From: Alphaproteobacteria bacterium
Lineage (GTDB): Bacteria > Pseudomonadota > Alphaproteobacteria > Sphingomonadales > Sphingomonadaceae
Direction of reading: 5' to 3'
Length of the DNA stretch: 64,000 bases
NCBI GenBank assembly: GCA_030426245.1
Contig: JAUHYZ010000006.1
Coordinates: 44,351-108,350, forward strand
Made by a program: the position numbers and the translations under genes. Position 1 is the first letter of the stretch; the number at the start of each line of letters is the position of its first letter. Shown one piece after another: positions 11,921-63,416 of this stretch. The notes under the pieces were generated by a model. It was not told the DNA's origin and made no database searches. It worked only from the letters and a program-made list of their open reading frames with translations.

Positions 11921-11972
11921 ATATTTCCATCCTCGTCCGAGCGTGTTATTCCGCCCGCCAACGAGGATGGAT

Positions 11973-12983
11973 ATGGCAATGAGCGAAAACGCACCTGAAT
12001 TGGGCAGGCCCGAGTTCCCACAGCGCCCGTATCGCGGCGGTGAATATGGCAAGGAACATGACGGCACCTATCTGATGAACTGGAACCCGATCATGCTGGC
12101 GGAAGACCTTCCGCAAGGGCAGGTGATCGGGAAGGATTTTCTGGGCACACGGGTTATCGTCTATCGCCAGGAAGACGGAACGCCGGTGGTGCAAAGCGCC
12201 TATTGCCCGCACATGGGCGCCGATCTTTCCTGCGGCGAGATGGTGGAAGGGCAGGTGCGTTGCCCCTACCATTTCTGGAAATTCGGGCCGGACGGACAAT
12301 GCACCGAGATTCCGGAGGAAGACACGATCCCCGGTGTGGCGCGCATTTACAATTATCCGGCGGCGGAGCGCTGGGGGTTCATCTGGGCCTTCAATGGCGA
12401 AGAACCGCTTTATGACCTGCCCGAGATGCCGAACATTGCTGAAGAGGATCTGGTGTACAAGCCGTTCCACCGCGGGTTGAGGCCGATCGAAGGCTGGATC
12501 GGGTCATCCAATATTGTCGATTTCCAGCATCTGAAGACGGTGCATGGAATTCCCGATCCCTATCCCAAGAAAGTGGAATTCAGTGATTATCTGCTCGATG
12601 TCCGCCAGGAATCGGACAACCGGGTGGTCGATACGCGTCTGCATGGTTGCACCTGGCTGACTGCGCATGCGCGGTTTTCCGATGGGCTGGAGCGGTTTTT
12701 CATGGCCGGCGGATCGCAGGTTGCGCCGGGTTGGTCGGACTCCTTCTTCCTGGTCGCATTGCGGCGTTCCGAGGCGGAGGAAATGGGCGAAAAAGCGGTG
12801 CAGGAAGAATTCCGGAAGCGGATCGAATACATGATCAAGCTTTATTCGGAAGACGAACCGATCCTCTATTCGATCCGGTTCAGGGGCTATCGAAAGAGCG
12901 CCCTGATCCGGGCCGACCGTTATATGGGCGAGTTCCTCCGCTACCATGATGCATATCCGCGTAAGGCGCCGTTCGACGTCTGA
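11973..12983 (+). CDS. Rieske 2Fe-2S aromatic ring-hydroxylating oxygenase, alpha subunit (KshA/VanA-like)
   Basis: CPHMGADLSCGEMVEGQVRCPYHFWKFG Rieske motif; VDFQHLKTVHG mononuclear iron ligands. Confidence 0.92.
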   Translation: MAMSENAPELGRPEFPQRPYRGGEYGKEHDGTYLMNWNPIMLAEDLPQGQVIGKDFLGTRVIVYRQEDGTPVVQSAYCPHMGADLSCGEMVEGQVRCPYHFWKFGPDGQCTEIPEEDTIPGVARIYNYPAAERWGFIWAFNGEEPLYDLPEMPNIAEEDLVYKPFHRGLRPIEGWIGSSNIVDFQHLKTVHGIPDPYPKKVEFSDYLLDVRQESDNRVVDTRLHGCTWLTAHARFSDGLERFFMAGGSQVAPGWSDSFFLVALRRSEAEEMGEKAVQEEFRKRIEYMIKLYSEDEPILYSIRFRGYRKSALIRADRYMGEFLRYHDAYPRKAPFDV

Positions 12984-47174: not shown

Positions 47175-48227
47175 TCAAGCGAGTTCTTGGCGGACAATGC
47201 GCGTGCCTTCTACCATCGCCTTCAATTTGGCGCTCGCGATGTCGCGGGGGAGGTATTTGAGCCCGCAATCGGGCGCAATCACAAGTTTTTCAGCCGGGGT
47301 ATGTTCCAAGGCCCGGCGTATACGCGCGGCCACAAGCTCCGGCGCGTCGATGGCATGCGTCGACAGATCCAGCACCCCCAGAATGATTGTCTTTTCCGGC
47401 AAGGTCTCGAGGATCGAACAGTCAAGATCAGACTGTGCGGTTTCGATCGAGATCTGATCGATCGCGCTGTCTGCAAGTTCGGGCAGGAAGCTGTACCCTT
47501 CTGGGCGCTCATGGATCAGCGCCGCATATCCGAAACAGATATGTATCGCTGTCGTCCCCGGTACGCCATCCAGCGCCCTTGTCAGCGCCTTGAGGCCGTA
47601 TTCGCGGGCCTTGTCCGCTCTTGCCTGCATATAGGGCTCATCGAGCTGGACGATGTCGGCGCCGGCCGCGAAGAGATCCTTGATTTCCTCGTTCACGGCT
47701 GCGGCATATCCTAGTGCCAGCGCTTCGGGGTCGCCGTAATGATCGTCCTGCGCTTGCTGGGCCATGGTAAAGGGACCGGGGACTGTGATCTTGATCACGC
47801 GGTCGGTATGTGCCCGCATGAATTCGACATCGCGGACCTGGACGGGATGCTTGCGGGAAATCGGCCCGACCACGCGTGGGACCGGCACAGGCTCTCCACT
47901 GCGGTCCAGAGCGGTACCGTGATTGTCGACATCGACCCCTTCCAGCGCGGTGGCGAAGCGGTTGGAATAGCTTTCGCGCCGCATTTCGCCGTCGGTCACA
48001 ATATCGATACCTGCGGCTTCCTGCTCCGCCAGCGCGATGATGGTCGCATCGTCCCAAGCCTGCTCCAGCCATTCGGGGGCGACACGCCAGAGCTCTTTCG
48101 CGCGAGTTCGCGGCGGGAAGCGCGAGGCAAGCTTTTCCCGGTCTATCAGCCAATCGGGCTGGGAATGCGAACCGACCAGCGAGGTCGGCAGCTTGGGCAA
48201 CTGTGTCATTGGTAAGGCCATCTCCAT
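47175..48227 (-). CDS. MetE-like (cobalamin-independent methionine synthase C-terminal domain) Zn-dependent alkyltransferase homologue
   Basis: LPTSLVGSHSQPDWLID; Zn-ligand pattern HIC (AIHICFGYA), E (ISIETAQSD), C (IAPDCGLKYLP). Confidence 0.85.
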   Translation of the reverse strand: MEMALPMTQLPKLPTSLVGSHSQPDWLIDREKLASRFPPRTRAKELWRVAPEWLEQAWDDATIIALAEQEAAGIDIVTDGEMRRESYSNRFATALEGVDVDNHGTALDRSGEPVPVPRVVGPISRKHPVQVRDVEFMRAHTDRVIKITVPGPFTMAQQAQDDHYGDPEALALGYAAAVNEEIKDLFAAGADIVQLDEPYMQARADKAREYGLKALTRALDGVPGTTAIHICFGYAALIHERPEGYSFLPELADSAIDQISIETAQSDLDCSILETLPEKTIILGVLDLSTHAIDAPELVAARIRRALEHTPAEKLVIAPDCGLKYLPRDIASAKLKAMVEGTRIVRQELA

Positions 48228-49007: not shown

Positions 49008-49502
49008 CTATCCTGCCCGCTCTTCGTCAGTTTCCGCCGGGGCATGCGCCTGGATCACTTCCCAATGCTCGACAATCAGGCCGTCCTGCACGCGAAAGAT
49101 GTCCACCTCGCTATGGGGCGGCTGACCTTCTGTGGAAAAGACCAGTTGCTGAACAACGGCTAGGTCCTTGTTCGCCACAGTGTTCAATATCTTGCGCTGC
49201 TGAGCAGGCGACCCCCAGCCGCGTTCCTGCAGGCGCGCGGCGCGGCCTGCAGCGCCAGGCAGGAGCCCGTGCTCGACCAGCTCATCGCTGAAATATTGCT
49301 CGGCGGCTTCGTCCGGTTTGCCTTCCTCGATAGCCAGCTTGATGAAGCGGCCTGCAACTGCCGCAGCGCTCTTGTCCATCGCCGCTGCACTTTCGTAATG
49401 CGCGCGGCTGCGCGGTCCGTAATCGGTCGTAGTCCACAAAGTGAAGAGAATGGGCGCGGCAATTCCAAGCACGATAGCGATGACATGCGTTGCTGGGCGC
49501 AT
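49008..49502 (-). CDS. Membrane-anchored SnoaL/NTF2-like protein
   Basis: N-terminal TM HVIAIVLGIAAPILFTLWTT; VDIFRVQDGLIVEHWEVIQ (SnoaL-like polyketide cyclase signature). Confidence 0.78.
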   Translation of the reverse strand: MRPATHVIAIVLGIAAPILFTLWTTTDYGPRSRAHYESAAAMDKSAAAVAGRFIKLAIEEGKPDEAAEQYFSDELVEHGLLPGAAGRAARLQERGWGSPAQQRKILNTVANKDLAVVQQLVFSTEGQPPHSEVDIFRVQDGLIVEHWEVIQAHAPAETDEERAG

Positions 49503-49505
49503 CGT

Positions 49506-49997
49506 TCAATGCTCCCATTCCGAATTGCCGAAGAGGCGTTTCACGCCCTTTAGCGACGGATCGCCCTGATTGCAGACCAGCATGGGCAGAAAGCGGTCCA
49601 GATGCGAGATCGCCATCAGACACAGCATGATGATGATCGCCACTGCGGTACCCGTGCCGAACCAGTCACCGTTGGTCGCATGATCGAAGAATGCGATACC
49701 GACACCGACCGGGAAGGCCAGCACGATGGCCAGCGGAACGAAGCGATTGGCGAGTAGCAGGGCGCCGCTTACCACTTCCATTCCCTTGACCAGATCGAAC
49801 ATGCCGCTTTCGATCATCGCGCCGATGAGGCCGGCACCTGCGGGCGATGAGCCGGGAGGCTGGGGGAAGAAGCTGAACCAATTGTTCAGCCCGTGGACTA
49901 AGAACCAGCCGCCAAAGAAGAACTGCACGCAGTAGACGACTATCTTGAATGTGGTTCCACTCTCCTTGGTGGCCGAGTTTGCAGCTTGGCTCGCCAT
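49506..49997 (-). CDS. DoxX-like membrane protein
   Basis: 163 aa from MASQAANSATKESG; HGLNNWFSFFPQPPG and GALLLANRFVPLAIVLAFPV shared with three other DoxX-like proteins in the window. Confidence 0.75.
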   Translation of the reverse strand: MASQAANSATKESGTTFKIVVYCVQFFFGGWFLVHGLNNWFSFFPQPPGSSPAGAGLIGAMIESGMFDLVKGMEVVSGALLLANRFVPLAIVLAFPVGVGIAFFDHATNGDWFGTGTAVAIIIMLCLMAISHLDRFLPMLVCNQGDPSLKGVKRLFGNSEWEH

Positions 49998-50041
49998 TTT
50001 CCCCTCCCGATTATCCGTCCCGTAAGTCGATGGAAGCCCTG

Positions 50042-51358
50042 TCATTCTGCCGGTGCTGCCGCGCCGTGCCGCTTGCCCGGCATTGCCAGCATTGCAATTG
50101 TGACGAATGCCATAAGGATCGCCAGGAAAAGGAAGAAGGCGCTGACCCCTGCCAGTGCGACGAGATGGACGCCGCCCACTGCAGCCAATACGCCGCCGAT
50201 ACGTCCGATTGCGTCCGATGTGCCCACGCCGCTGGCACGCAGGTTTGGTGGATATATCTCCGCCACAAGCGTGTAGAGCGCCGTAACGATCGCAGCCGAG
50301 CCAATTCCGCCGAAGGCAAGAATGCTGAGCAGCACCGGTTCGCTCAGACGGCTGCCTGCAGATGTGTAGGCCAGTACCGCAGAAACGATCACCGTGATTG
50401 CGGCGCCTAGCGGGGCGACGCGGTGTAGACCGAACCGTCCGAGCAGCCAGCCTGCTAGCGGCGTCCCGACGATCGAGGCGATGGTCCACGCTGTGAGTGC
50501 GCCGCTGGCGAAGGACAGCGGATAGCCGAGCCGCGATAGGGCGACCGGGACCCAATTGAGCACGGCATTGCCGAATATGTAAGTGGCGAAGAACAGCCCC
50601 CAGATGCCAAGTGTCGCACCGGGATTGGCATGCAGCAATTGGACGAAACGCTTGTGAAAAGGCTCTTCCTCGCCGGCGGCAGCGGGCGCTTCGCGTGGCT
50701 CGTGGCTAATCCCAAGCCGTTCTGTAATACGCTTCAATTCGGCGCTTCGAGCTGGAATTTTAACAAGAAAATTAGGTGATTCCGGGACGAATATCACAAA
50801 GCAGATAAATACCGGAATGCTCAGAAGGGCGAACAGCCGGAACAATGCCTGCCACCCGAACTCAGGCAAGATTGCGGCGGATGCCAGGGCGGCGATGCTG
50901 AGCCCGGTGGGCAGCGACGCGACGGAGAAGCTGATTGCCAATGCGCGTCGCTCGAACGGAACGAGCTCGGTCAACAATGCCATGGATGCTGCAAAGAAGC
51001 AGCCCATGGCAACGCCTGCCAAAAGGACCGGGACGAAAAGTTGAAGGGGGGTCGAGGCAAATGTCGCCAAGGCTTCGAACAGACCCAACATCAGGAGCGA
51101 TGCCCCGATAAGGAAGCGCCTGCCGAAATTGTCGGCAATGACGCCGCCCGAGACCGCCCCCAAACCGGAACCAATCAGGACTGCCGCGATAGGCAATGCC
51201 ATGGCCGTATCTGGCAGGCCCCAATCTGCGATGATTGCCGGGGCGGAGACCGGCAACAGTTGGATGAAGGTCCCGCTCAGGACGAAGATTGCCATCAGAG
51301 AGGCAATTGTGGCGAATGGAGTGGGCCTGGTGCGCATCAGGCCGGTTTCCTTGCTCAT
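50042..51358 (-). CDS. MFS transporter
   Basis: ORF 50042..51490, likely start MSKETGLMRTRP at 51358; SGGVIADNFGRRFLIG, FVPESPNFLVK. Confidence 0.9.
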   Translation of the reverse strand: MSKETGLMRTRPTPFATIASLMAIFVLSGTFIQLLPVSAPAIIADWGLPDTAMALPIAAVLIGSGLGAVSGGVIADNFGRRFLIGASLLMLGLFEALATFASTPLQLFVPVLLAGVAMGCFFAASMALLTELVPFERRALAISFSVASLPTGLSIAALASAAILPEFGWQALFRLFALLSIPVFICFVIFVPESPNFLVKIPARSAELKRITERLGISHEPREAPAAAGEEEPFHKRFVQLLHANPGATLGIWGLFFATYIFGNAVLNWVPVALSRLGYPLSFASGALTAWTIASIVGTPLAGWLLGRFGLHRVAPLGAAITVIVSAVLAYTSAGSRLSEPVLLSILAFGGIGSAAIVTALYTLVAEIYPPNLRASGVGTSDAIGRIGGVLAAVGGVHLVALAGVSAFFLFLAILMAFVTIAMLAMPGKRHGAAAPAE

Positions 51359-51434
51359 TCTACTTGCCTCCCAAAAAGCGATGGAGTGGCCCGAAATCCT
51401 TCGCGCCACTCCCCGCGCATTCGCCGGATCGGCG

Positions 51435-52556
51435 TCAGCCCCAGACCTTGCGAGCCACTTCGACCACAAGTTCAAGCTTGCGGCGTTCATCGTCGACGGT
51501 GATCAGATTGCCCAGCTCGGTCGAGGCAAAGCCGCATTGCGGGCTGATCGCCAGATCTTCGAGCGGGACGAATTTAGTCGCCTCGTCGATCCGCTTGCAG
51601 AGATAATCGACATCTTCCAAATCGCCGACCTTCGTCGTGATCAGGCCGAGCACCACAACCTTGCCCTTGGGCACGAAACGCAGGGGTTCGAAGCCGCCGG
51701 CACGGTCGGTATCGAATTCCATAAGGAACCGGTCGGTGTCGACCTGTCCCAGCAGATATTCGGCTACGCTTTCATAGCTGCCTTCGGCGCCCCAGGAGCT
51801 GCGGTGGTTGCCGCGGCAGATATGCACGCCGCGGGTCACTCCTTCCCGCTTCATGGTGCCAAGTACGCGGTTGTCGATCTCTACCAGCCGCTCCAGTGTT
51901 CCGCGCGCATCGGCAGGATTTATGTCTCCTGTATGGGCGGCCTGGATCGTATCGATATAGCGCAGGGAATCGAGCTGGAGATAGGGCACGCCGATCTCGT
52001 GGAGCGCTTGGATTTCGCCCTGATAGAGTTTCACCAGGTCGTCGAGCAGTTCGTCCATGTCGGCATAGACGGCCTTGCTGATCTCGGGATCGAACAGTCG
52101 GGTGAACATGCTTGGGCTGGGGATGGTGATCTTGAAGGGGCCGGAGGCATTCTTCTTCAGGAACTCCGCTTCCTTGGTTGCGAAGCTGTGCTTGAGGCCG
52201 ATTTTTTCTGCTGCGACATAGTGCTGTGGAACAGTTTCTTCGGCGACGTCCGAATGCGCACCATGCCATCGGCGAGCGGGCTGTCCGCCGCCCGGGGCTT
52301 CCTTGCGCGTCGGGACAAGGCCGGAGAGCGAACTGGTCAGACCGCTCCCCCAAGCAGCGCGGCGGAATTCTCCGTCGCTCACCACTTGGATGCCGGTTTC
52401 CTTCTGCAGGACCAGCACGTCGCGAATTGCCTGGTCCTCTTCCTCCCGCAGGGCTTCTGCGGAGACTGCACCGGCTTCAAACTGACGGCGTTTGGCAAGC
52501 AGGCTTTCCGGTCGAAGAAGACTGCCGACCTGATCGGCACGAATGATATTTCCCAT
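51435..52556 (-). CDS. MetE-like Zn-dependent alkyltransferase homologue (second copy)
   Basis: RADQVGSLLRPESLL; Zn-ligand pattern HIC (GVHICRGNHRSS), E (FLMEFDTDRAG), C (ISPQCGFAS). Confidence 0.87.
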   Translation of the reverse strand: MGNIIRADQVGSLLRPESLLAKRRQFEAGAVSAEALREEEDQAIRDVLVLQKETGIQVVSDGEFRRAAWGSGLTSSLSGLVPTRKEAPGGGQPARRWHGAHSDVAEETVPQHYVAAEKIGLKHSFATKEAEFLKKNASGPFKITIPSPSMFTRLFDPEISKAVYADMDELLDDLVKLYQGEIQALHEIGVPYLQLDSLRYIDTIQAAHTGDINPADARGTLERLVEIDNRVLGTMKREGVTRGVHICRGNHRSSWGAEGSYESVAEYLLGQVDTDRFLMEFDTDRAGGFEPLRFVPKGKVVVLGLITTKVGDLEDVDYLCKRIDEATKFVPLEDLAISPQCGFASTELGNLITVDDERRKLELVVEVARKVWG

Positions 52557-52612
52557 CGTTAAACTCCAGATGTGTTTTGCGGTTCAGAGGCGCGCTGGCC
52601 TCTATTTCTTAT

Positions 52613-53620
52613 CTATTCCAGCGGGGCGGGGCCCTTGTGCCGGCCTTCTTCCAATGGTCCGTCGATAACCATCGAGCGGCCCGATACGCTGAAGGGCGGG
52701 ACGTCCTGGAAGACGTCCCAATGATCGGTGACTTTGCCGTCCCTGACGCGGAACAAATCCACAAAGGCCGTGCCCAGCGGATTGCTCTCGCTGGTTACCC
52801 AGCGATGGACGAGGACGAGATCACCATCGGCAATGGTACGGGCGAAGTGGTGCGTGCGATTGTCCGCAAGCCGCTGTTCCTCGCGTGCAGCCATGTAGTC
52901 GATCAAGCCCTGCCGGCCCGGAGGTATACGGGCGCTGTGCTGGTTCAGATCCTCTGCCACATAGGTTTCAATCGCTTCGATGCGCCGCCCGGGTTCCAGG
53001 CCCATATTCATGTAATCGAGAACCAACTTGGTATTGGCTTCGGGATCTCCGGTTGGATCGGGCTGGCCGCAAACCGGGTTCTCAACCGTATTGCCGGCCT
53101 GCTTCGCCTCTTCATAGGTCACACCGACACCGCAACCGACAGCCCGCTTTTCAGCGGTTTCTTCGTCGATCGGCATGATGACGTCCCAATGTTCGGCAAA
53201 CTGACCGTCTTCCACGCGCCAGATGTCGACGAAAATGCGGCCGGTGTCTTCGGGACTGGTAAAGACGTGCGACTTGACCGCCACGAACTGATCGTCGGCC
53301 ATGATATTGTGGACGACGTTCACATAGTCGTCGGTAGCGTCGTATTTCTCCGGTTCGGCATCCTTGCGAGCTTCGAGGAATTCTTCGTCACCCTGATTGC
53401 CGTCACCGATCCAGGGATCGTGCTGCATGATGTCCGGGGCGAAGTATTTCGCGAAGGCTTCGTTGGATTTCTTCTCCTGAGTGAGCAGCATCAGAAAATC
53501 GGTGATTGCAGCCCGGTTGGCTTCTCTTTGCGTCGGTGCTTGCGCTTCTTCCGCAGCCTCTGGTGCGGAGCAGGAGGCCAGAGCTAGCGCCGTAGCTGCG
53601 AGTGTAATCTTGCGGATCAT
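52613..53620 (-). CDS. Lipoprotein with two tandem SnoaL/NTF2-like domains
   Basis: Lipobox LALASCSAPE; two repeats ending VDIWRVEDGQFAEHWDVIMP and VDLFRVRDGKVTDHWDVFQD. Confidence 0.85.
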   Translation of the reverse strand: MIRKITLAATALALASCSAPEAAEEAQAPTQREANRAAITDFLMLLTQEKKSNEAFAKYFAPDIMQHDPWIGDGNQGDEEFLEARKDAEPEKYDATDDYVNVVHNIMADDQFVAVKSHVFTSPEDTGRIFVDIWRVEDGQFAEHWDVIMPIDEETAEKRAVGCGVGVTYEEAKQAGNTVENPVCGQPDPTGDPEANTKLVLDYMNMGLEPGRRIEAIETYVAEDLNQHSARIPPGRQGLIDYMAAREEQRLADNRTHHFARTIADGDLVLVHRWVTSESNPLGTAFVDLFRVRDGKVTDHWDVFQDVPPFSVSGRSMVIDGPLEEGRHKGPAPLE

Positions 53621-54141
53621 TATTCCTCACTCCCATGACTGTATCCCGCAATGGACACAGAATTGAGGTCCATGCGGGCGAAGCGCCAGCCTTCGTCGGT
53701 CCGTGTGCATTGCATGGATATCTCGACCAGCATCATCGTGCCCAGGCTATCGATTTCGTGGCGCTTGTTGGGGTTGTAGCGGTGCTGTTGAACCAGCGCG
53801 GTGCCGGATGCGTTGTTGCTATCCACTATGTTCCAGCGAATGTTGTTTATGGCGTGGCGGCCGACCGTGGGCCGCTCGTTCGCCGCTATTCCGTCCCACA
53901 TCTCGCGAAACTTGGCGCGGCCTTCGACTTCCACCTGGCCATCGGCGGTCCAGATGCCGTCGACGGCAAACACGTCGGTCACTTTGGCCGGATCCACTTC
54001 GTCCAAGCCCTCGCCGTAAGTGTAGAGAATCTCGGTGCAGGCGTCCTTGATCAGGAGCATTTCGACCTGGCCCGGATCGTCATGGGCGATGCTTGGGGAG
54101 GCCAGTACACACAGAGCTCCCGCCGCGATTATCGGTTTCAT
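53620..54141 (-). CDS. Secreted SnoaL/NTF2-like protein
   Basis: Signal peptide MKPIIAAGALCVLASPSIAHDD; YTYGEGLDEVDPAKVTDVFAVDGIWTADGQVEVEGRAKFREMW. Confidence 0.82.
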   Translation of the reverse strand: MKPIIAAGALCVLASPSIAHDDPGQVEMLLIKDACTEILYTYGEGLDEVDPAKVTDVFAVDGIWTADGQVEVEGRAKFREMWDGIAANERPTVGRHAINNIRWNIVDSNNASGTALVQQHRYNPNKRHEIDSLGTMMLVEISMQCTRTDEGWRFARMDLNSVSIAGYSHGSEE

Positions 54142-54236
54142 GATTTGTCTCCGCGATGTCTGGCCCAATCGCGCAGGATCACCACCAGCAGCACGAAGGT
54201 GGCGAATAGCAGCGGACCATATTGATGGGGCATCAT
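54138..54236 (-). CDS. Small single-TM protein
   Basis: MMPHQYGPLLFATFVLLVVILRDWARHRGDKS (32 aa), overlaps stop of upstream DoxX-like gene and start of downstream SnoaL-like gene. Confidence 0.45.
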   Translation of the reverse strand: MMPHQYGPLLFATFVLLVVILRDWARHRGDKS

Positions 54237-54748
54237 GGGCTGGAAGTCCTCAGGTAAGGAGCCCTCCAGAGTGGCCGCATCTTTGCCTTGGGTGTCACCA
54301 GAGGCAGGAAGTAATCGGCGTAGCAGGCCAGGATGAAGAGGTTGAAGCCGATCTCCCTCGCGCCTGAGAACACGATATTGGGTGAACCGTCGACGAAGAA
54401 ACAGAGATAGGCGATGATCACGCTGATGGGCAGCTCGATCGCGGCGGCCAATGGAACGAAACGGTTGGCGAGCAGGCAAATGCCTACCGTCATTTCGATC
54501 ACCTTCACCAGATCGTATAGGCCGATCTCTATCAGTTGCCCCATGAACGGGCCGATCGGCGAAAGTGCGGGATCGCCACCTCCGCCAATGTCGAAGATCG
54601 GGACGAAGTGATTGAGGCCGGAGATCAGGCTGTGCGCACCGAAGGCCATACGCACCCAGAGCAGCGCGTAGCGTGTCCAATCAATTTGGAACGCCTGTGC
54701 TTCAGACAAAGGGCTGGTCCTTTTCGCAATCCATGTCTCTCTCCCCAT
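54233..54748 (-). CDS. DoxX-like membrane protein
   Basis: Start MGRETWIAKRTSP; HSLISGLNHFVPIF and GICLLANRFVPLAAAIELPIS. Confidence 0.75.
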   Translation of the reverse strand: MGRETWIAKRTSPLSEAQAFQIDWTRYALLWVRMAFGAHSLISGLNHFVPIFDIGGGGDPALSPIGPFMGQLIEIGLYDLVKVIEMTVGICLLANRFVPLAAAIELPISVIIAYLCFFVDGSPNIVFSGAREIGFNLFILACYADYFLPLVTPKAKMRPLWRAPYLRTSSP

Positions 54749-54830: not shown

Positions 54831-55736
54831 ATGCATCAGCAGCAACTCGGACGACTGAAAGTCAACAAGGTTCTCGAAAGCTACATGGCTTCTGCGGGCC
54901 TTCCGGTATCCATGATATTTCCTGACGTGACGCAGGACGACATGCAGAAGCTCGCCGGCTGGTGCCCGCTTCCCGAAGTGACGGAAGATCCGGCGACTTC
55001 GCTTATTGCACTGAGCGTGCACAGCTTCGTCATTCAGCTGGACGGACAAAATATCCTCATCGACAGCTGCAACGGCAACCACAAGACCAGAGCGCTCGAC
55101 ATGGTCGACAATCTCGAGACTCCTTACCTTGAGAATCTGGCTGCAGTCGGGTTGAAGCCCGAGGACATTCATTTGGTGATGTGCACCCATTTGCATTTCG
55201 ACCATGTCGGCTGGAACACCCGGCTTGAGAATGGTCGCTGGGTGCCGACATTCCCCAATGCCCGTTACCTCTTCGGCAAGCGCGACTATGAGCATTGGAG
55301 TACGCAGGACGATGAAGCCGAATTCATCCACCGACAGGCATTCGACGATTCAGTGTTGCCTGTGGTGCAGGCCGGGCTTGCGGACATAATCGACACTGAT
55401 GATCCCGTTGCCGTCCGGCAGGAAATTGGCAATGGGGTCTGGATCGAGCCGGCTTATGGTCATTCGCCAGGCTGCGTCACCGTTTCCGCGCAAGCAGACG
55501 GCGCTCCCGCGCTTTTTTGGGGCGACATCGTCCATCACCCCGTCCAGATGATCAGGCCGGAGCTCACGCTGCCGTTCGATCACGATCAACCGACTGCAGC
55601 CAAGACGCGTCTTGCCATGCTTGATCGTATTGCCGACAGCGACACGATCTGCTTCCCGGCGCATTTCGCCGATCCGTCAGTCGGCCGCGTACTTCGCGAT
55701 GGCTCAGCCTATCGTTATCAGTTCATCGACAGCTGA
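54831..55736 (+). CDS. MBL-fold metallo-hydrolase (lactonase-like)
   Basis: MCTHLHFDHVGWN Zn-binding HxHxDH; PAYGHSPGCVTV. Confidence 0.9.
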   Translation: MHQQQLGRLKVNKVLESYMASAGLPVSMIFPDVTQDDMQKLAGWCPLPEVTEDPATSLIALSVHSFVIQLDGQNILIDSCNGNHKTRALDMVDNLETPYLENLAAVGLKPEDIHLVMCTHLHFDHVGWNTRLENGRWVPTFPNARYLFGKRDYEHWSTQDDEAEFIHRQAFDDSVLPVVQAGLADIIDTDDPVAVRQEIGNGVWIEPAYGHSPGCVTVSAQADGAPALFWGDIVHHPVQMIRPELTLPFDHDQPTAAKTRLAMLDRIADSDTICFPAHFADPSVGRVLRDGSAYRYQFIDS

Positions 55737-55762: not shown

Positions 55763-56260
55763 TCAGCAGACGCTGGTTTCCAGCCTGGCAAAGCGGCCGC
55801 GGTGGAATAATAGAGGATCCTTGTCCCCGTTTTCGAATGCCATGACGCGGCCGACCAGGATGATGTGGTCTCCGCCTTCATAGCGGTGCTCCGTTTCGCA
55901 TTCGAAACGCGCGGAACAGCCCTCAAGCAGCGGCACACTGCCCAGTCCGACGGAGGTCTGGATATTGGCGAAGCGGTCTTGATCCGAGGTGGCGAATTGC
56001 ATCGCCACGGCTTCCTGGTCGCAACTGAGCACATGGATGGCGAAGCGCGGTGCTTCCATGAATATGGAATAGCTGCGTGAAGTTCTGGCAACAGACCACA
56101 AGACGAGCGGTGGATCGAGAGAGACCGAGCTGAAACTGTTCGCGGTCATCCCGATCGGCGTACCTGCGCTGTCCAGTGTGGTGATTACCGTAACACCGGT
56201 TGCGAAATGGCCCAGCGCATCGCGAAAGCTGCGCAAATCGAATGGCGCGTTGTCAGTCAT
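55763..56260 (-). CDS. Flavin reductase-like protein (HsaB/HpaC type)
   Basis: FRDALGHFATGVTVITTLDSAGTPIGMTANSFSSVSLDPPLVLWSV. Confidence 0.93.
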   Translation of the reverse strand: MTDNAPFDLRSFRDALGHFATGVTVITTLDSAGTPIGMTANSFSSVSLDPPLVLWSVARTSRSYSIFMEAPRFAIHVLSCDQEAVAMQFATSDQDRFANIQTSVGLGSVPLLEGCSARFECETEHRYEGGDHIILVGRVMAFENGDKDPLLFHRGRFARLETSVC

Positions 56261-56284: not shown

Positions 56285-56575
56285 TCAGCCGGCAGGCGGT
56301 TTCATGGCGGCGATTCGATAGCGTCGCACGGAGACCAGTTCGAACACTCCATTGGCGACGTAGGGATCGGCCTGCGCCAATTCTTGTGCGGCGGCATCGC
56401 TGTCCGCTTCGACAATAACGACGCTGCCCACCGGTTTGTCGTCACTGCCCAGCAAGGGGCCGGCGAGCGCCATGGCGCTGCCGAGCCCCTTGCGGTAGGC
56501 GATGTGATCCGGGCGCTTTTCCTCACGCGCAGTCGGATTGCCGAGTTCGCGATATTCGACGAGGAAATGCGGCAT
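56285..56575 (-). CDS. YciI-family protein
   Basis: ADSDAAAQELAQADPYVANGVFELVSVRRY typical of YciI. Confidence 0.88.
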   Translation of the reverse strand: MPHFLVEYRELGNPTAREEKRPDHIAYRKGLGSAMALAGPLLGSDDKPVGSVVIVEADSDAAAQELAQADPYVANGVFELVSVRRYRIAAMKPPAG

Positions 56576-56578
56576 GGA

Positions 56579-57850
56579 TCAGGCGGCTTCTTGCGACGGC
56601 TGCAAGTGCTCGGCGAGCGGCTGGATATCCTGCCACTTCTTGTCCGGATCGAAGAAGAAGGTCTCCGCTGTGATTTCGCTCCAGTCGAGCTTCGCCTGAT
56701 CCGCTTCGGGCACTTCGCCCGTCTCGGCAAAATGTCTTGCGGCGCGCAGCATCATCCGGCGGAATGCCACCACAGCCATGTCGCTACGCCCCAGATGCTC
56801 CTTGGTACGATCGGCGATCTTGCCCATGGTCTCTGAAACCGCATGGTCTTCCAGCGCCACGCCCTTGATTCCGGACAAGTTGCCGTCCTTGGACTTCATC
56901 ATTTCGCGGTCCTGATTGTACCAGACGTCCTTGCCGTTGATCTTGAAGAACTGCTCGTCCCACACAACGCCGGATTCATCGATACGGTGTTCGCGATCGA
57001 TCGTCTGACCCGGATCGTAAAAGAACTGGATGTGCCAGGTGGATTCGTCGTCACGCGGAACGAAGGCGTTGACCAGCCGGCGGTTCCTCCGGAATTCCGG
57101 TGCTTTGGGGCCATCTGGCGGAATGAAAGTATAGAAGGGCAGTGGAACCTGGGTCATGCGGCCGTTCTTGGTCTGGTCATCCGCATTGCGCACGGCGCAA
57201 TAGCGCAGGCCGTAACGCGTAAATTCCACTTCCAGCTTCGGACGCAGATCCTTCTCATGCGGCCAGCGGGGTTCTTCGGACCACGGCACGGAGCGGTGGA
57301 GAATGCCTGCGTGGGAAGAGTCGACTGCCCCTTCGAGCGCTTGGGAATAGTTGCACTCATAGATCACACGGAAGGCTTCGCAGCTGCCTTCGGGCATGTC
57401 GAACCAGGGAAAATGCGGAAATTCGGGCTGATTTTCTTCCGGCCCCATATAAGTCCATACCATGCCGCCTGCGATGCGCGTGGGGTAGGCTTTGACCTTC
57501 ATGGCTTTTGCGAGCTTGGAGTTCTCGGGTTCGGCAGGCGTGTCGAGGCACTGGCCATTGACGTCGAATTTCCAGCCATGAAACAGGCAGCGCAGACCGC
57601 AATCTTCGTTGGCGCCCAGGGCGAGTGACGAACCGCGGTGCGGGCAGTGCTCGTCCAGCAATCCGACCTCTCCGTTGGAATCCATGAAGCAGACCAGGTC
57701 TTCGCCCATAAGCCGAATCCTGATGGGCTTGCCGTCCGGTTCCAACTCGTTGAGTACAACGGCCGGCATCCAGAAACGACGCATCATTTCGCCCATTGTG
57801 GTGCCGGGGCCAACCCGGCAAAGAAGCTCGTTATCTTCGTGAGAGAGCAT
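56579..57850 (-). CDS. Rieske 2Fe-2S aromatic ring-hydroxylating dioxygenase alpha subunit (phthalate 4,5-dioxygenase-like)
   Basis: CPHRGSSLALGANEDCGLRCLFHGWKFD; GAVDSSHAGILHR; likely start MLSHEDNELLCRVGPGTTMGEMMRRFWMPA. Confidence 0.94.
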   Translation of the reverse strand: MLSHEDNELLCRVGPGTTMGEMMRRFWMPAVVLNELEPDGKPIRIRLMGEDLVCFMDSNGEVGLLDEHCPHRGSSLALGANEDCGLRCLFHGWKFDVNGQCLDTPAEPENSKLAKAMKVKAYPTRIAGGMVWTYMGPEENQPEFPHFPWFDMPEGSCEAFRVIYECNYSQALEGAVDSSHAGILHRSVPWSEEPRWPHEKDLRPKLEVEFTRYGLRYCAVRNADDQTKNGRMTQVPLPFYTFIPPDGPKAPEFRRNRRLVNAFVPRDDESTWHIQFFYDPGQTIDREHRIDESGVVWDEQFFKINGKDVWYNQDREMMKSKDGNLSGIKGVALEDHAVSETMGKIADRTKEHLGRSDMAVVAFRRMMLRAARHFAETGEVPEADQAKLDWSEITAETFFFDPDKKWQDIQPLAEHLQPSQEAA

Positions 57851-57932: not shown

Positions 57933-58226
57933 GTGGACCTCGATGATATCCTCCCGATCGAGAATTTTTCAGACCTGACAATCCAGAATCTTGCCGACCG
58001 GATGCAGCGTTCGAACTCGTTCGAACAATATGTCTATCGCGAAAGCGAGATGGACGAATTGTGGCGCCTGCTGGACGTTGCAGTGCGCACCGGAGACCCG
58101 GATGGACTGCGCAGCGAAGAGAAACTGCGCATGATGCGCGACCTTGTGCACAAGGCGCATGACCTTGTCGGTATGGAAGGCAAGCCCAAGGAGGCGGCTG
58201 AGATTTTGCGTGAAGCGCTGATCTAG
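57933..58226 (+). CDS. Small helical protein of unknown function
   Basis: 97 aa, MDLDDILPIENFSDLTIQNLADRMQRSNSFEQYVYRESEMDELWRLLDVAV; divergent to the Rieske gene. Confidence 0.6.
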   Translation: MDLDDILPIENFSDLTIQNLADRMQRSNSFEQYVYRESEMDELWRLLDVAVRTGDPDGLRSEEKLRMMRDLVHKAHDLVGMEGKPKEAAEILREALI

Positions 58227-58898: not shown

Positions 58899-59891
58899 TC
58901 ACTTCCAGTAGACGAAACCCATCGCATTGCCGGTTCCCGCCTCGCTACGATAGCAGGGGATATAATCCAGTACATGCGGTTCCAGACCAAGTTGGGCCAT
59001 TGCCCCTGCGACTGGAATCCAGTTCTTCATTTCGGAAGTCCCGTCGCGGAAGGTTCTTTCACCCAGTGCAAAGACTGGTTCGAAATCCTTCTTTTCCAAT
59101 GCGCCCAGAAAGGTCTTGTCGACATTCTCGTCCACGACGAAATGGGTCAGGCCGCCGCTGGCGATCAGCGCCACACGCAAGTTCGAATCCCATTCACGGA
59201 TCGCTTCCAGGATCGACTGGCCGAACTTGTAACAGCGGCGCATGGTCGGCTGATTCGGCGGGAAAAAGGTGTTCACCGTCACCATCACGCTTGGGCAGGG
59301 ATTGTCGCGCATAATGCGTCGATAGATAAAGCCCCAGGCATGCGGTGTTTCCGCGCGGGGCAGGTCGGACATCGCGGCGACATCGAATTCATCGGCAATC
59401 GCCTGCTCGATGATCTTGAGCGCCAACTCAGGGCAGCCCTTATAGTCCGCGCCGCCTGCCGGAATGTAGCCGGGCAGAGAAATTTCGATGCCTGGCGGCA
59501 GCTCTGCCTTACGTTCTTCAGAAAATTCGTAGTTGGTGATTTTGTTACCATAATGAACGCCGAAGGCCGGGTTCAACGTATTGCGATATATCTCATTTTG
59601 GTCGTTGCCGATGATTACGGCGACATCGACTTTGGCTTCTTCGAAAATGTCTGCCAGCTTTTCGATGTTCGCCTGGCATTCGATCTGTCGCTGGTCCCAG
59701 ACGTCCTTGTTGGCCTGTTCGGCGATACCTTCGCCTGCGCGAGCCTTCACCAAGTCGTCAAAGGACCAATCGCCGCCTTTCCAGGCATGCAACATCGACT
59801 TGTCTGAAGGAACGCGCTGGCCCCAGGTTTCCGTTTCCGTGACAAGCATGGGGCCGTGGCTCGTACCTATTCCAAGGACAACTTCCGCCAT
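58899..59891 (-). CDS. LigB-family extradiol ring-cleavage dioxygenase
   Basis: LGIGTSHGPMLVTETETW; VIIGNDQNEIY; ALIASGGLTHFVVDENVD. Confidence 0.9.
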   Translation of the reverse strand: MAEVVLGIGTSHGPMLVTETETWGQRVPSDKSMLHAWKGGDWSFDDLVKARAGEGIAEQANKDVWDQRQIECQANIEKLADIFEEAKVDVAVIIGNDQNEIYRNTLNPAFGVHYGNKITNYEFSEERKAELPPGIEISLPGYIPAGGADYKGCPELALKIIEQAIADEFDVAAMSDLPRAETPHAWGFIYRRIMRDNPCPSVMVTVNTFFPPNQPTMRRCYKFGQSILEAIREWDSNLRVALIASGGLTHFVVDENVDKTFLGALEKKDFEPVFALGERTFRDGTSEMKNWIPVAGAMAQLGLEPHVLDYIPCYRSEAGTGNAMGFVYWK

Positions 59892-60054: not shown

Positions 60055-61293
60055 ATGGCATCAATCGCACAAAATGAGGGCGCAAAGCTCGTCGCAACCG
60101 CCAATCGTCCGGTTGTTTCGTCGAGTGAGGAAGCAATTGCGAAGGTTCGCGCCCTCTTGCCGGATATCACAGCCGCCGATTCAGTTGCGGATGACGAGCG
60201 GCATTTGCCCGACAGCATTGTAGAAAAAATGCGTGAGACGGGCCTCTTCGGCATCGTCATGCCGAAAAATCTTGGCGGTTCGGAGCTCGGCTTCGCAGAT
60301 CTTGTTCGTGTTACGGTTGAAATCGGTAAGGTTTCTGGTTCCGCCGCCTGGATTTATGGCGTGCTGGCTGGCCATAGCTGGCTGATCAACCTGTTTCCCG
60401 AAGAAGCGCAGCGCGAGATCATGAGCGATCCCACGACTCTGCTGGGAACGGTCTTCCGCCTCGGCGGCACAGTTGTCGAAGAAGGTGACGGATATCGTCT
60501 TACCGGCGGCAATGGCCGTTTCTGCTCGGGCATCGATTATGCCACCTGGGTAATCATCGGGAATGCCGTGCATAAAACTGACGGCACGATGGAGCCGCGC
60601 TTCTTTGTAGTCCCCAAGTCCGACATCGAAGTTGTGGACGATTGGTACACCATGGGGATGCGCGGCACGGGCAGCCGCTCGATCAAGATCGACAATGCCT
60701 TCATTCCTGCGCATCGCAGCTGCAGCCTTGCCGATATGCTCGCCGGCTCCACGCCGGGCGCGCGTGTGCATGAGGGGGCAATCTATCGCTTGCCATTTTC
60801 CAGCCTGGCACCATTCTCTATCATTGGCGCGCCGCTTGGCGTGGCCAAGGGAATGGTCGACCGCTTCGCCGAGAAAATCGGCGCAAAGCTGAGCGATGCC
60901 GATCCACTGCAAGTCGCCGAGCAATCCGCCACCCTGGCACGCATTGCGGAAACGGGCGGCGATGTCGACGCGGCGATCGCTCTGGTGATCAGCGATGCCG
61001 AAATGGTCAATCGCGCAAAAGAACCGAGTGATATTTCGGAAGTGCAGCGCGCGCAGATTCCGCGGAACTGGGCTTGGGCAGCGCAGCGTGCTCGCCACGC
61101 AGCCAACCGCGTATTCGAAGCCTCGGGCGGGACCTCCATCTATGATGGTCAGGAAATGCAGCGCGTGTTCCGTGATGTGAACTCGGGTGCACAGCACTTC
61201 GCTTTCACATGGGACAGCGCGATGACGGGTTATGGACGCGCTCTATGCGGTCTGAAGCCCGGCGAATTCGCGCTGCCCAGTAAGAAGAAATAG
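60055..61293 (+). CDS. Acyl-CoA dehydrogenase-fold flavin-dependent monooxygenase (HsaA/DszC-like)
   Basis: MRETGLFGIVMPKNLGGSELGFADLVRVTVEIGKVSGSAAWIYGVLAGHSW; GMRGTGSRSIKIDNAFIPAHRS. Confidence 0.88.
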   Translation: MASIAQNEGAKLVATANRPVVSSSEEAIAKVRALLPDITAADSVADDERHLPDSIVEKMRETGLFGIVMPKNLGGSELGFADLVRVTVEIGKVSGSAAWIYGVLAGHSWLINLFPEEAQREIMSDPTTLLGTVFRLGGTVVEEGDGYRLTGGNGRFCSGIDYATWVIIGNAVHKTDGTMEPRFFVVPKSDIEVVDDWYTMGMRGTGSRSIKIDNAFIPAHRSCSLADMLAGSTPGARVHEGAIYRLPFSSLAPFSIIGAPLGVAKGMVDRFAEKIGAKLSDADPLQVAEQSATLARIAETGGDVDAAIALVISDAEMVNRAKEPSDISEVQRAQIPRNWAWAAQRARHAANRVFEASGGTSIYDGQEMQRVFRDVNSGAQHFAFTWDSAMTGYGRALCGLKPGEFALPSKKK

Positions 61294-61344: not shown

Positions 61345-61866
61345 ATGACATACAGCCATGTCGCAGCATTGCTGCATTGGCTGATGGCCTTGCTGGTCAT
61401 CCTAATTCTCGTGCTCGGTCTTTTCGGAGATGCACTTGAGAGCATCATTTCGTTTTCCGCGATAACCTTGCACAAGTCGCTCGGCATGACAGTGTTCTTG
61501 CTGACTCTATTCAGGGGATTTTGGCGCATTGGGCACCGTCCTCCTCCGCTGCCCGAAACCACGCCGAAGTGGCAGATCGGCGCATCGCATGCGGTTCACT
61601 TCCTGATCTACGCGTTGATGCTGGGCTTGCCGTTGAGCGGATATATTTTCGGCGCCGCCGGCCCCTATCCGATGCAATTTTTCGGCCTGGATGTGCCCAA
61701 GATAGCGGTTGGCGAGGCCATGGGCGAAACGGCGCATAGCCTGCATGAGATCGGCGGTCTTACGATGGCAGGTCTTGTGGTGCTCCATATGGGGGCAGCG
61801 TTCTATCATCACTTCGTCCAGAAGGATGAATTGATCAATCGCATGCGACCCTGGCGGGCTGCCTGA
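61345..61866 (+). CDS. Cytochrome b561
   Basis: 173 aa, 4 TM; SHVAALLHWLMALLVI, LHKSLGMTVFLLTLFR, FLIYALMLGLPLSGY, LHMGAAFYHHFVQKD. Confidence 0.93.
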   Translation: MTYSHVAALLHWLMALLVILILVLGLFGDALESIISFSAITLHKSLGMTVFLLTLFRGFWRIGHRPPPLPETTPKWQIGASHAVHFLIYALMLGLPLSGYIFGAAGPYPMQFFGLDVPKIAVGEAMGETAHSLHEIGGLTMAGLVVLHMGAAFYHHFVQKDELINRMRPWRAA

Positions 61867-61947: not shown

Positions 61948-62595
61948 TCAGCGCGGCGGAGCCAGCAAGGCCAGGCTGCTCCAGGGAATGATCCCGATAA
62001 TCATGCCGATGGCCCACAAGGTCGAAATCGCACCGACGGTGTAGCTGAGCCAGCGCAAGGTGAACCTGACAGGCGCCGATTCGAATATCGAAGTCCATGC
62101 TGCCGGTTCGCCGCCCGGTTTCACAGTGAACATCTGCCGGTAATCGCCGAAATATTCGGACATCAGATAGGCCTGCATCACGAACACGCCTGCGCCGAAG
62201 AACAGCATGTCGAGAAAACTGGCCCAAAATGCCGCGCCGCTCAAATTGCCAGCCAGGAAGGGGCCGAAGTTTCCAAGGAAAGGAAACAGATCGAGCAGGA
62301 AGGTCATCAAGATGACTGGGAAGCTCAGCACCAGCATCAGCACGGCATAGCGGTTGAATATCAGAGCTAGCCCAAGCAGGATTTCCAGGACCTTGGCGGT
62401 AGAGAACATCCAGCTCGATTCCACGAGTACACGCAGAATTTCGTGCTTCACCGGTCCTTCGATCTGCTCATGCATATTGGGGAACGGTAGAATCTTGAAC
62501 CACCAATTGATGCCCGAGCACAGCGATTGGATTCCCAATAGCCAGCGCACCGCGACGATCGCGAAATTGCGATCATTCAGCTTAAAACCCTCCAT
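61948..62595 (-). CDS. DoxX-like membrane protein (larger variant)
   Basis: SLCSGINWWFKILPFPN; LEILLGLALIFNRYAVLMLVLSFPV shared with other DoxX-like paralogues. Confidence 0.7.
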   Translation of the reverse strand: MEGFKLNDRNFAIVAVRWLLGIQSLCSGINWWFKILPFPNMHEQIEGPVKHEILRVLVESSWMFSTAKVLEILLGLALIFNRYAVLMLVLSFPVILMTFLLDLFPFLGNFGPFLAGNLSGAAFWASFLDMLFFGAGVFVMQAYLMSEYFGDYRQMFTVKPGGEPAAWTSIFESAPVRFTLRWLSYTVGAISTLWAIGMIIGIIPWSSLALLAPPR

Positions 62596-62733: not shown

Positions 62734-63183
62734 ATGTGGCGGACAATCGAAAAATACGGCGTGGCTTTCTGCCGCTACTACCTAGGCGGCTTCAATCTGA
62801 TCTCGGGACTGAACTACTTCGTGCTGTTCTGGCCCCAGCCGAAGGTGACCGACGTTACCGGCAACGAGTTCGTGATCGCCGCAATGGATCTCAACCTGTT
62901 CACCTATGCCAAGATTTTCGAAATCATCGGCGGTGCGTGCCTGGTATTCAATCGCTTCGTGCCGCTGGGTCTCGTGCTGCTCATGCCGGTTACGATGAAT
63001 ATCTTCCTGGTCAACGTGCCCTGGTCGCCGCTGCCGCATGTTCAGCTGTCGGTGACACGCAACCTGTTGATGCATCTGATCCTGCTGGCGGCATATGCCA
63101 ACTATTTCTACCCGATGCTCAAAGCCAAGACCGCGCCGCAGCCGGTCTGGCGTGATCCCTCACGTATCTGGAGGTCTTTCTGA
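62734..63183 (+). CDS. DoxX-like membrane protein
   Basis: Start MWRTIEKYG; FNLISGLNYFVLFWPQPKV; GGACLVFNRFVPLGLVLLMPV. Confidence 0.75.
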   Translation: MWRTIEKYGVAFCRYYLGGFNLISGLNYFVLFWPQPKVTDVTGNEFVIAAMDLNLFTYAKIFEIIGGACLVFNRFVPLGLVLLMPVTMNIFLVNVPWSPLPHVQLSVTRNLLMHLILLAAYANYFYPMLKAKTAPQPVWRDPSRIWRSF

Positions 63184-63416
63184 TGTTGGAGATATTCTTT
63201 GAAAACATGAAGGACGCGACCTTCAGCTTCGTCATGGACGGCAAGACCGACATGATGAGCCTCAATCCGCTGGAGCATACCAACTTCGAGATGATGGGGA
63301 CCATCTTCGGCATTGCCGGCTTGGTGATCACATTCGTGCTTAGCCGGCGCGGAGTGAAGGGCCAGTTGCCACACACATTTACCGACGAGGAAACGGAAGA
63401 AGACTCGCTCAAATGA
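63183..63416 (+). CDS. Small single-TM protein
   Basis: 77 aa; overlaps stop of the upstream DoxX-like gene; TM MMGTIFGIAGLVITFVLSRRG. Confidence 0.65.
   Translation: MLEIFFENMKDATFSFVMDGKTDMMSLNPLEHTNFEMMGTIFGIAGLVITFVLSRRGVKGQLPHTFTDEETEEDSLK

Follow-up and report, generated by a model that had tools for sequence, protein, structure and literature searches.

Why a methionine-synthase-like enzyme, a transporter and several small envelope proteins should be encoded one behind the other in a sphingomonad is the question raised by positions 49008 to 54748 of the window, the whole stretch of 64,000 nucleotides analysed here. The initial annotation had proposed a single operon of eight genes coupling envelope processing, MFS transport and cytoplasmic alkyl transfer, and it had named a gene order unique to this genome as one of the findings that would speak against this proposal.

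Gene order and selection in the operon

The locus was compared with the sister MAG Co_bin.103 (L036), with contig G140:C9 of a Novosphingobium MAG (evidently the same as L037) and with contig G119:C148 from another genus. In the direction of reading, the eight genes and two genes to their left are:

54233..54748, minus strand: DoxX-like membrane protein (DoxX1), 171 aa; shared motifs and structure model; kept in L036, L037 and G119
54138..54236, minus strand: 32-aa microprotein with a single TM segment and the motif MMPHQ(Y/W)GPL.FAT; selection versus L036, motif in L037 and L042
53620..54141, minus strand: secreted SnoaL_4 protein; Pfam 1e-13, Sec-type signal, conserved at 46-91%
52613..53620, minus strand: double SnoaL_2 lipoprotein with lipobox LASC; Pfam 3e-18 in two stretches, orthologs at 60-96%
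51435..52556, minus strand: core-MetE protein (MetE1) without folate domain, Zn and homocysteine residues kept; Pfam, residue alignment, Foldseek
50042..51358, minus strand: MFS transporter (MFS_1), nearest to TIGR00895 aromatic acid:H+ symporters; G140 ortholog in place, 46%
49506..49997, minus strand: DoxX-like membrane protein (DoxX2); shared motifs, position shared only with L036
49008..49502, minus strand: membrane-anchored SnoaL protein; SnoaL_2-like, N-terminal anchor, position shared only with L036
48390..48953, plus strand: SnoaL_4 protein with twin-arginine-like signal, convergent to the operon; L036 counterpart 87%
47175..48227, minus strand: second MetE-core protein (MetE2), outside the operon; Pfam and PDB match

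All eight reading frames were found on the minus strand at the junctions that the initial annotation had given, with overlaps of 4 bases at 54236/54233 and at 54141/54138, of 1 base at 53620/53620, and gaps of 56, 76, 44 (49998-50041) and 3 bases between the remaining genes. No terminator-like site was present on the transcribed strand within these gaps, a promoter scan gave no excess over shuffles, and neither an Rfam RNA nor a SAM riboswitch was found. Across the eight genes dN/dS versus L036 is 0.00-0.12, and the 32-codon frame differs from its L036 counterpart by five synonymous and no nonsynonymous changes, pointing to purifying selection on all eight genes, the membrane microprotein included.

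The gene order is not restricted to this genome. L036 shows all eight genes in order at 91-100% protein identity, L037 keeps the order as far as the MFS gene (46-77%) with a duplicated double-SnoaL gene, and G119:C148 keeps the part from DoxX to MetE (46-79%). DoxX1, the microprotein, the secreted SnoaL protein, the double-SnoaL lipoprotein and MetE1 thus follow each other in the same order, tightly spaced, in three lineages; the MFS gene is in place in two, and the tail of DoxX2 and anchored SnoaL occupies this position only in L036. As conservation of the order across three lineages ends with the fifth gene, and the last two genes are in place only in the sister MAG, the eight genes as named are not supported as a natural unit. 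From the proposed single operon the common direction and the tight packing remain, and the gap sizes agree with genes that would be transcribed together.

The DoxX-like proteins of the operon were assigned by motif and model rather than by family score. DoxX1 has no Pfam DoxX match and DoxX2 reaches 15.8/23.6 bits, under the gathering cut-off of the DoxX family PF07681, so that neither belongs to the family by this cut-off; the label DoxX-like is based on motifs common to four such proteins of the island and on a DoxX1 model of moderate confidence. The best PDB match of this model in a fold search, which gave no significant match, is NACHO/TMEM35A (E 0.26, TM 0.51/0.62), which we take to be DoxX-like. 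The anchored SnoaL_2-like protein scores 24 bits against a Pfam cut-off of 27.

Compared with the proposed coupling of envelope, transport and transfer, the single components are in place, namely envelope-targeted SnoaL proteins, an MFS transporter near aromatic-acid importers and a MetE-like transferase, predicted to be cytoplasmic, with an intact zinc site.

The surrounding ring-cleavage island

The initial annotation did not include the larger ring-cleavage island, which gives the operon its meaning. Its further genes in the window are:

54843..55736, plus strand: metallo-beta-lactamase-fold hydrolase (lactonase-like), divergent, start codon uncertain
55763..56260, minus strand: flavin reductase (HpaH/HsaB-type)
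56285..56575, minus strand: YciI-family protein
56579..57850, minus strand: LigXa-type Rieske oxygenase alpha subunit; PF19301 2.8e-41 plus Rieske domain, matches to phthalate dioxygenase structures
57933..58226, plus strand: conserved protein of 97 aa, no Pfam family; 98/75/59% in L036/G140/G119
58899..59891, minus strand: LigB-type class III extradiol dioxygenase; orthologs at 80-95%
60055..61293, plus strand: HsaA/HpaH-like flavin-dependent phenol monooxygenase
61345..61866, plus strand: cytochrome b561 (Pfam)
61948..62595, minus strand: DoxX-like membrane protein, 215 aa; shared motifs, no Pfam match
62734..63183, plus strand: DoxX-like membrane protein, 149 aa; DoxX 0.0045, under the cut-off
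63183..63416, plus strand: single-TM protein, 77 aa
63661..63999, plus strand: SnoaL-like protein running off the contig end; full-length counterpart in G140

The Rieske and LigXa_C domains are both present in the protein at 56579-57850, as in LigXa-type Rieske oxygenases. In G119 the run reads Rieske-YCII-DoxX-microprotein-SnoaL-SnoaL-MetE-ferredoxin-RraA-ferredoxin reductase, with the 2Fe-2S ferredoxin, the RraA aldolase and the ferredoxin reductase following MetE1 on the same strand; a ferredoxin and a ferredoxin reductase are the partners needed by a Rieske oxygenase. The right end of the window is also the end of its contig (C53). In G119 and G140 the genes beyond this point correspond to those with which another contig of the genome studied here, C25, starts, and from this synteny with relatives C53 and C25 are probably adjacent. 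C25 encodes MetE-like proteins, amidohydrolases including a LigJ-like one, two RraA/LigK-type aldolases, a GMC oxidoreductase, a PQQ dehydrogenase and a VanA-type Rieske protein. Regarding the set for 4,5-cleavage of gallate or protocatechuate, the LigB type is thus present in the window and the LigJ and LigK types are represented, at the level of the family, on the presumably adjoining C25. A LigB homolog with an amidohydrolase and several RraA aldolases around it was also found in G146 and on an annotated plasmid of Polymorphobacter. Due to the neighbouring enzymes, the content of C25 and these two LigB contexts, the island is most likely a gallate/protocatechuate-type ring-cleavage system with the operon as its upper module.

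Some features of the island are worth recording on their own. The gene for the 97-aa protein lies beside the Rieske gene on the opposite strand in three lineages, and in G140 a GST-N-like protein of 127 aa (L039, 6698-7081) is encoded between LigB and this gene, with no counterpart in the window. The small single-TM proteins at 54138-54236 and 63183-63416 are different from each other, and each follows a DoxX-like gene and precedes a SnoaL gene, an arrangement that looks like two versions of one envelope module in the same island. In L087 (G332:C13:457001-476000) several DoxX-like genes surround a ring-cleavage core, and there is no MetE gene within that stretch. A further Rieske-domain protein is encoded at 11967-12983 of the window, far from the island.

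The island resembles the lignin pathways of sphingomonads (LigXa, LigAB, LigJ, LigK, DesA, LigM) in its LigXa-type Rieske oxygenase, its LigB-type dioxygenase and its LigJ/LigK-like steps, and it goes beyond them with the HsaA-like monooxygenase and the SnoaL/DoxX envelope module. The O-demethylases of N. aromaticivorans are the folate-dependent DesA/LigM and the VanA-like DmtS (PMC8091115). With the syringate cluster of Pseudomonas NGC7 (mga/gal), as far as described in the part of that report considered here, the island shares a VanA-type oxygenase, a LigB-type dioxygenase, an aldolase and a SnoaL_4 protein, which is the putative tautomerase MgaD in NGC7 (PMC12314914). The putative tautomerase function of this SnoaL_4 protein in the syringate pathway makes an enzymatic role of the SnoaL proteins plausible here as well, but the copies of the operon, in contrast to NGC7, have export signals or an anchor. 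Neither core-MetE nor DoxX is mentioned for NGC7 in the same part of the report. A literature search revealed no described DoxX/SnoaL/Rieske/extradiol cluster, and a search for MetE-like enzymes in O-demethylation yielded no matching system.

MetE1 and the core-MetE proteins of the lineage

MetE1 has 373 aa and a single PF01717 (Meth_synt_2) domain, the catalytic half of MetE, and no N-terminal folate domain. The equivalents of the E. coli zinc ligands H641, C643, E665 and C726 are all kept, and so are those of the homocysteine residues S433, E484 and D599, which together with the zinc ligands are the residues on which Price et al. (PMC7857596) relied. In the core methionine synthases MesA-MesD, too, the catalytic barrel of MetE stands without a folate domain (Price et al. 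2021, PMC7857596), and judged by domain, zinc site and homocysteine residues MetE1 would be a protein of this type. Unlike MesA-MesD, however, it is located in an aromatic catabolic operon and is nearest to PRK06520/PRK06233 and the Listeria-type structure 1ypx, although its 297 bits against PRK06520 are under the family cut-off of 313. The structure model of MetE1 is of low confidence (pLDDT 57) and matches MetE in Foldseek at 1.5e-12; the relation of MetE1 to the MesD structure 3RPD is distant (E 2e-5). MesD itself is defined by about 72% identity to MesD and the presence of MesX, for which no match was found in the genome studied here, by a search that also gave no match in any control genome. 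A scan of genome contigs for MetE1 orthologs led to two loci; a sample of 385 genomes from the whole class contained none at E 1e-84 besides that of the own genome, and among 201 genomes of the family there are two further orthologs with more than 60% identity. Orthologs of MetE1 are thus rare, and they travel with the catabolic cluster.

As a control for the residues we used a MetE-like gene of Nocardioides JS614 that has alkene monooxygenase and CoM biosynthesis genes as its neighbours and from this position is presumed to be etnE (epoxyalkane:CoM transferase). Like MetE1, the presumed EtnE is a short MetE-like zinc enzyme from a degradation cluster and has the complete zinc set; in contrast to MetE1 it has N433 and K484, two of the three homocysteine residues being lost. 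An assignment of MetE1 as epoxyalkane:CoM transferase was lowered for this reason, as MetE1 has S433 and E484.

Including MetE1, MetE2, eight further full-length core copies and a fragment at the start of C25, the genome encodes about 10 or 11 core-MetE proteins. Residue 433 is R in the C25_22438 type and N in C75_b, C60_59k and C60_296k. In most of the sampled members of the family, PF01717 gives zero to five matches; G000 (8), G140 (9), G119 (7) and G078 (9) are outliers, some of the matches being pieces of one gene. At the corresponding position of L036, a sister locus with 95% identity, no MetE2 was found. The best PDB match of MetE2 is 3RPD (MesD), but it was not filed as MesD, as the nearest sequences found are other sphingomonad copies (76-78%) that have a MetE3-type gene as partner.

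Neither the MetH activation domain nor S-methyl_trans was found in G071, G195, G140, G119 and G146, whereas both are present in G332; the genome studied here has one S-methyl_trans protein of 328 aa and no MetH activation domain. A PF01717 frame long enough for a full MetE is absent from G071, G140 and G146, with G071 and G146 being 99% complete. Other core-MetE copies are present in G071, G146, G140 and G195, and the core-MetE proteins may be the methionine synthases of this lineage.

Candidate roles of the operon

We tentatively favour the operon as a substrate-specific upper module in which MetE1 would methylate homocysteine, independent of folate, at the expense of a methylated aromatic intermediate, a reading to which we give somewhat less than an even chance. 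On the periplasmic side, the secreted, lipid-anchored and membrane-anchored SnoaL proteins would bind or act on a hydrophobic aromatic with methyl or methoxy groups, and the small DoxX-like membrane proteins would back redox chemistry there. The MFS transporter would take up the resulting product, Rieske and flavin monooxygenases would demethylate or hydroxylate it, LigB would cleave the ring and LigJ- and LigK-like enzymes would pass the fragments on to central metabolism. The methyl group derived from the substrate would be transferred by MetE1 via its zinc-thiolate, most likely to homocysteine. The conserved order and the selection, the LigXa-type Rieske, flavin reductase, LigB and HsaA-like neighbours, the genes of C25, the LigB contexts in G146 and Polymorphobacter, the genes behind MetE1 in G119 and the residues and Foldseek match of MetE1 count for this reading. 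Against it count ring-cleavage cores free of MetE-type genes in G332 and G146 (near 2.1 Mb), by which MetE1 would be dispensable for ring opening, as well as the score of MetE1 under the PRK06520 cut-off, the lack of a riboswitch hint of methionine regulation, the low-confidence model and a C53-C25 join that comes from relatives and not from the assembly.

MetE1 might instead be a methionine synthase of the lineage, receiving its methyl group from a corrinoid protein or an oxygen-dependent partner and being in the island by chance or using one-carbon units from demethylation. The missing MetH and S-methyl_trans domains in G071, G146, G140 and G195, the missing full-length MetE in the first three of these and the complete set of homocysteine residues would fit, but other core-MetE copies in the same relatives, the rarity of MetE1 orthologs and their linkage to the catabolic cluster, and the missing MesX match (with the limit on this search given above) make it rather unlikely. 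A zinc-thiol alkyltransferase that couples reactive intermediates of catabolism, for instance an epoxide or a quinone methide, to a thiol, similar to epoxyalkane:coenzyme M transferase, is a little less probable still: the JS614 gene encodes a short MetE relative with a zinc site and belongs to a catabolic cluster, and MetE3-type paralogs of the own genome have N or R at position 433, but MetE1 keeps the S433 and E484 that the presumed EtnE lacks, and among the annotated neighbours of MetE1 no gene for coenzyme M synthesis was recognised.

We consider it improbable that the SnoaL, DoxX and MetE genes serve detoxification or protection of the envelope, as a module that is co-regulated with the pathway and stands outside its chemistry. 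Many and variable SnoaL and DoxX-like genes near the ring-cleavage genes of relatives, and the presence of the last two operon genes only in the sister MAG, would fit such a module; the exact order and tight spacing of the first five genes in three lineages speak against it. It would be a bold step, and one with a small chance of being right, to propose a new kind of aerobic O-demethylation or methyl salvage, in which zinc core-MetE proteins, about ten in this one genome and located in aromatic catabolic clusters, would need neither folate nor cobalamin to take methyl groups from methylated aromatic intermediates, with residue 433 (S, N or R) deciding on the acceptor.

In summary, these genes vary a known theme, the aromatic catabolism of sphingomonads, with the core-MetE expansion as the unusual element. 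It is not settled from which donors the folate-independent core methionine synthases of aerobic bacteria take their methyl groups (PMC7857596). With its about ten core-MetE proteins, several of them in aromatic-degradation clusters, and with near-complete relatives without detectable MetH domains, this lineage lets aromatic methyl groups be tested as such a source, and it offers a conserved SnoaL/DoxX-like envelope module with a membrane microprotein of 32 residues for a ring-cleavage pathway.
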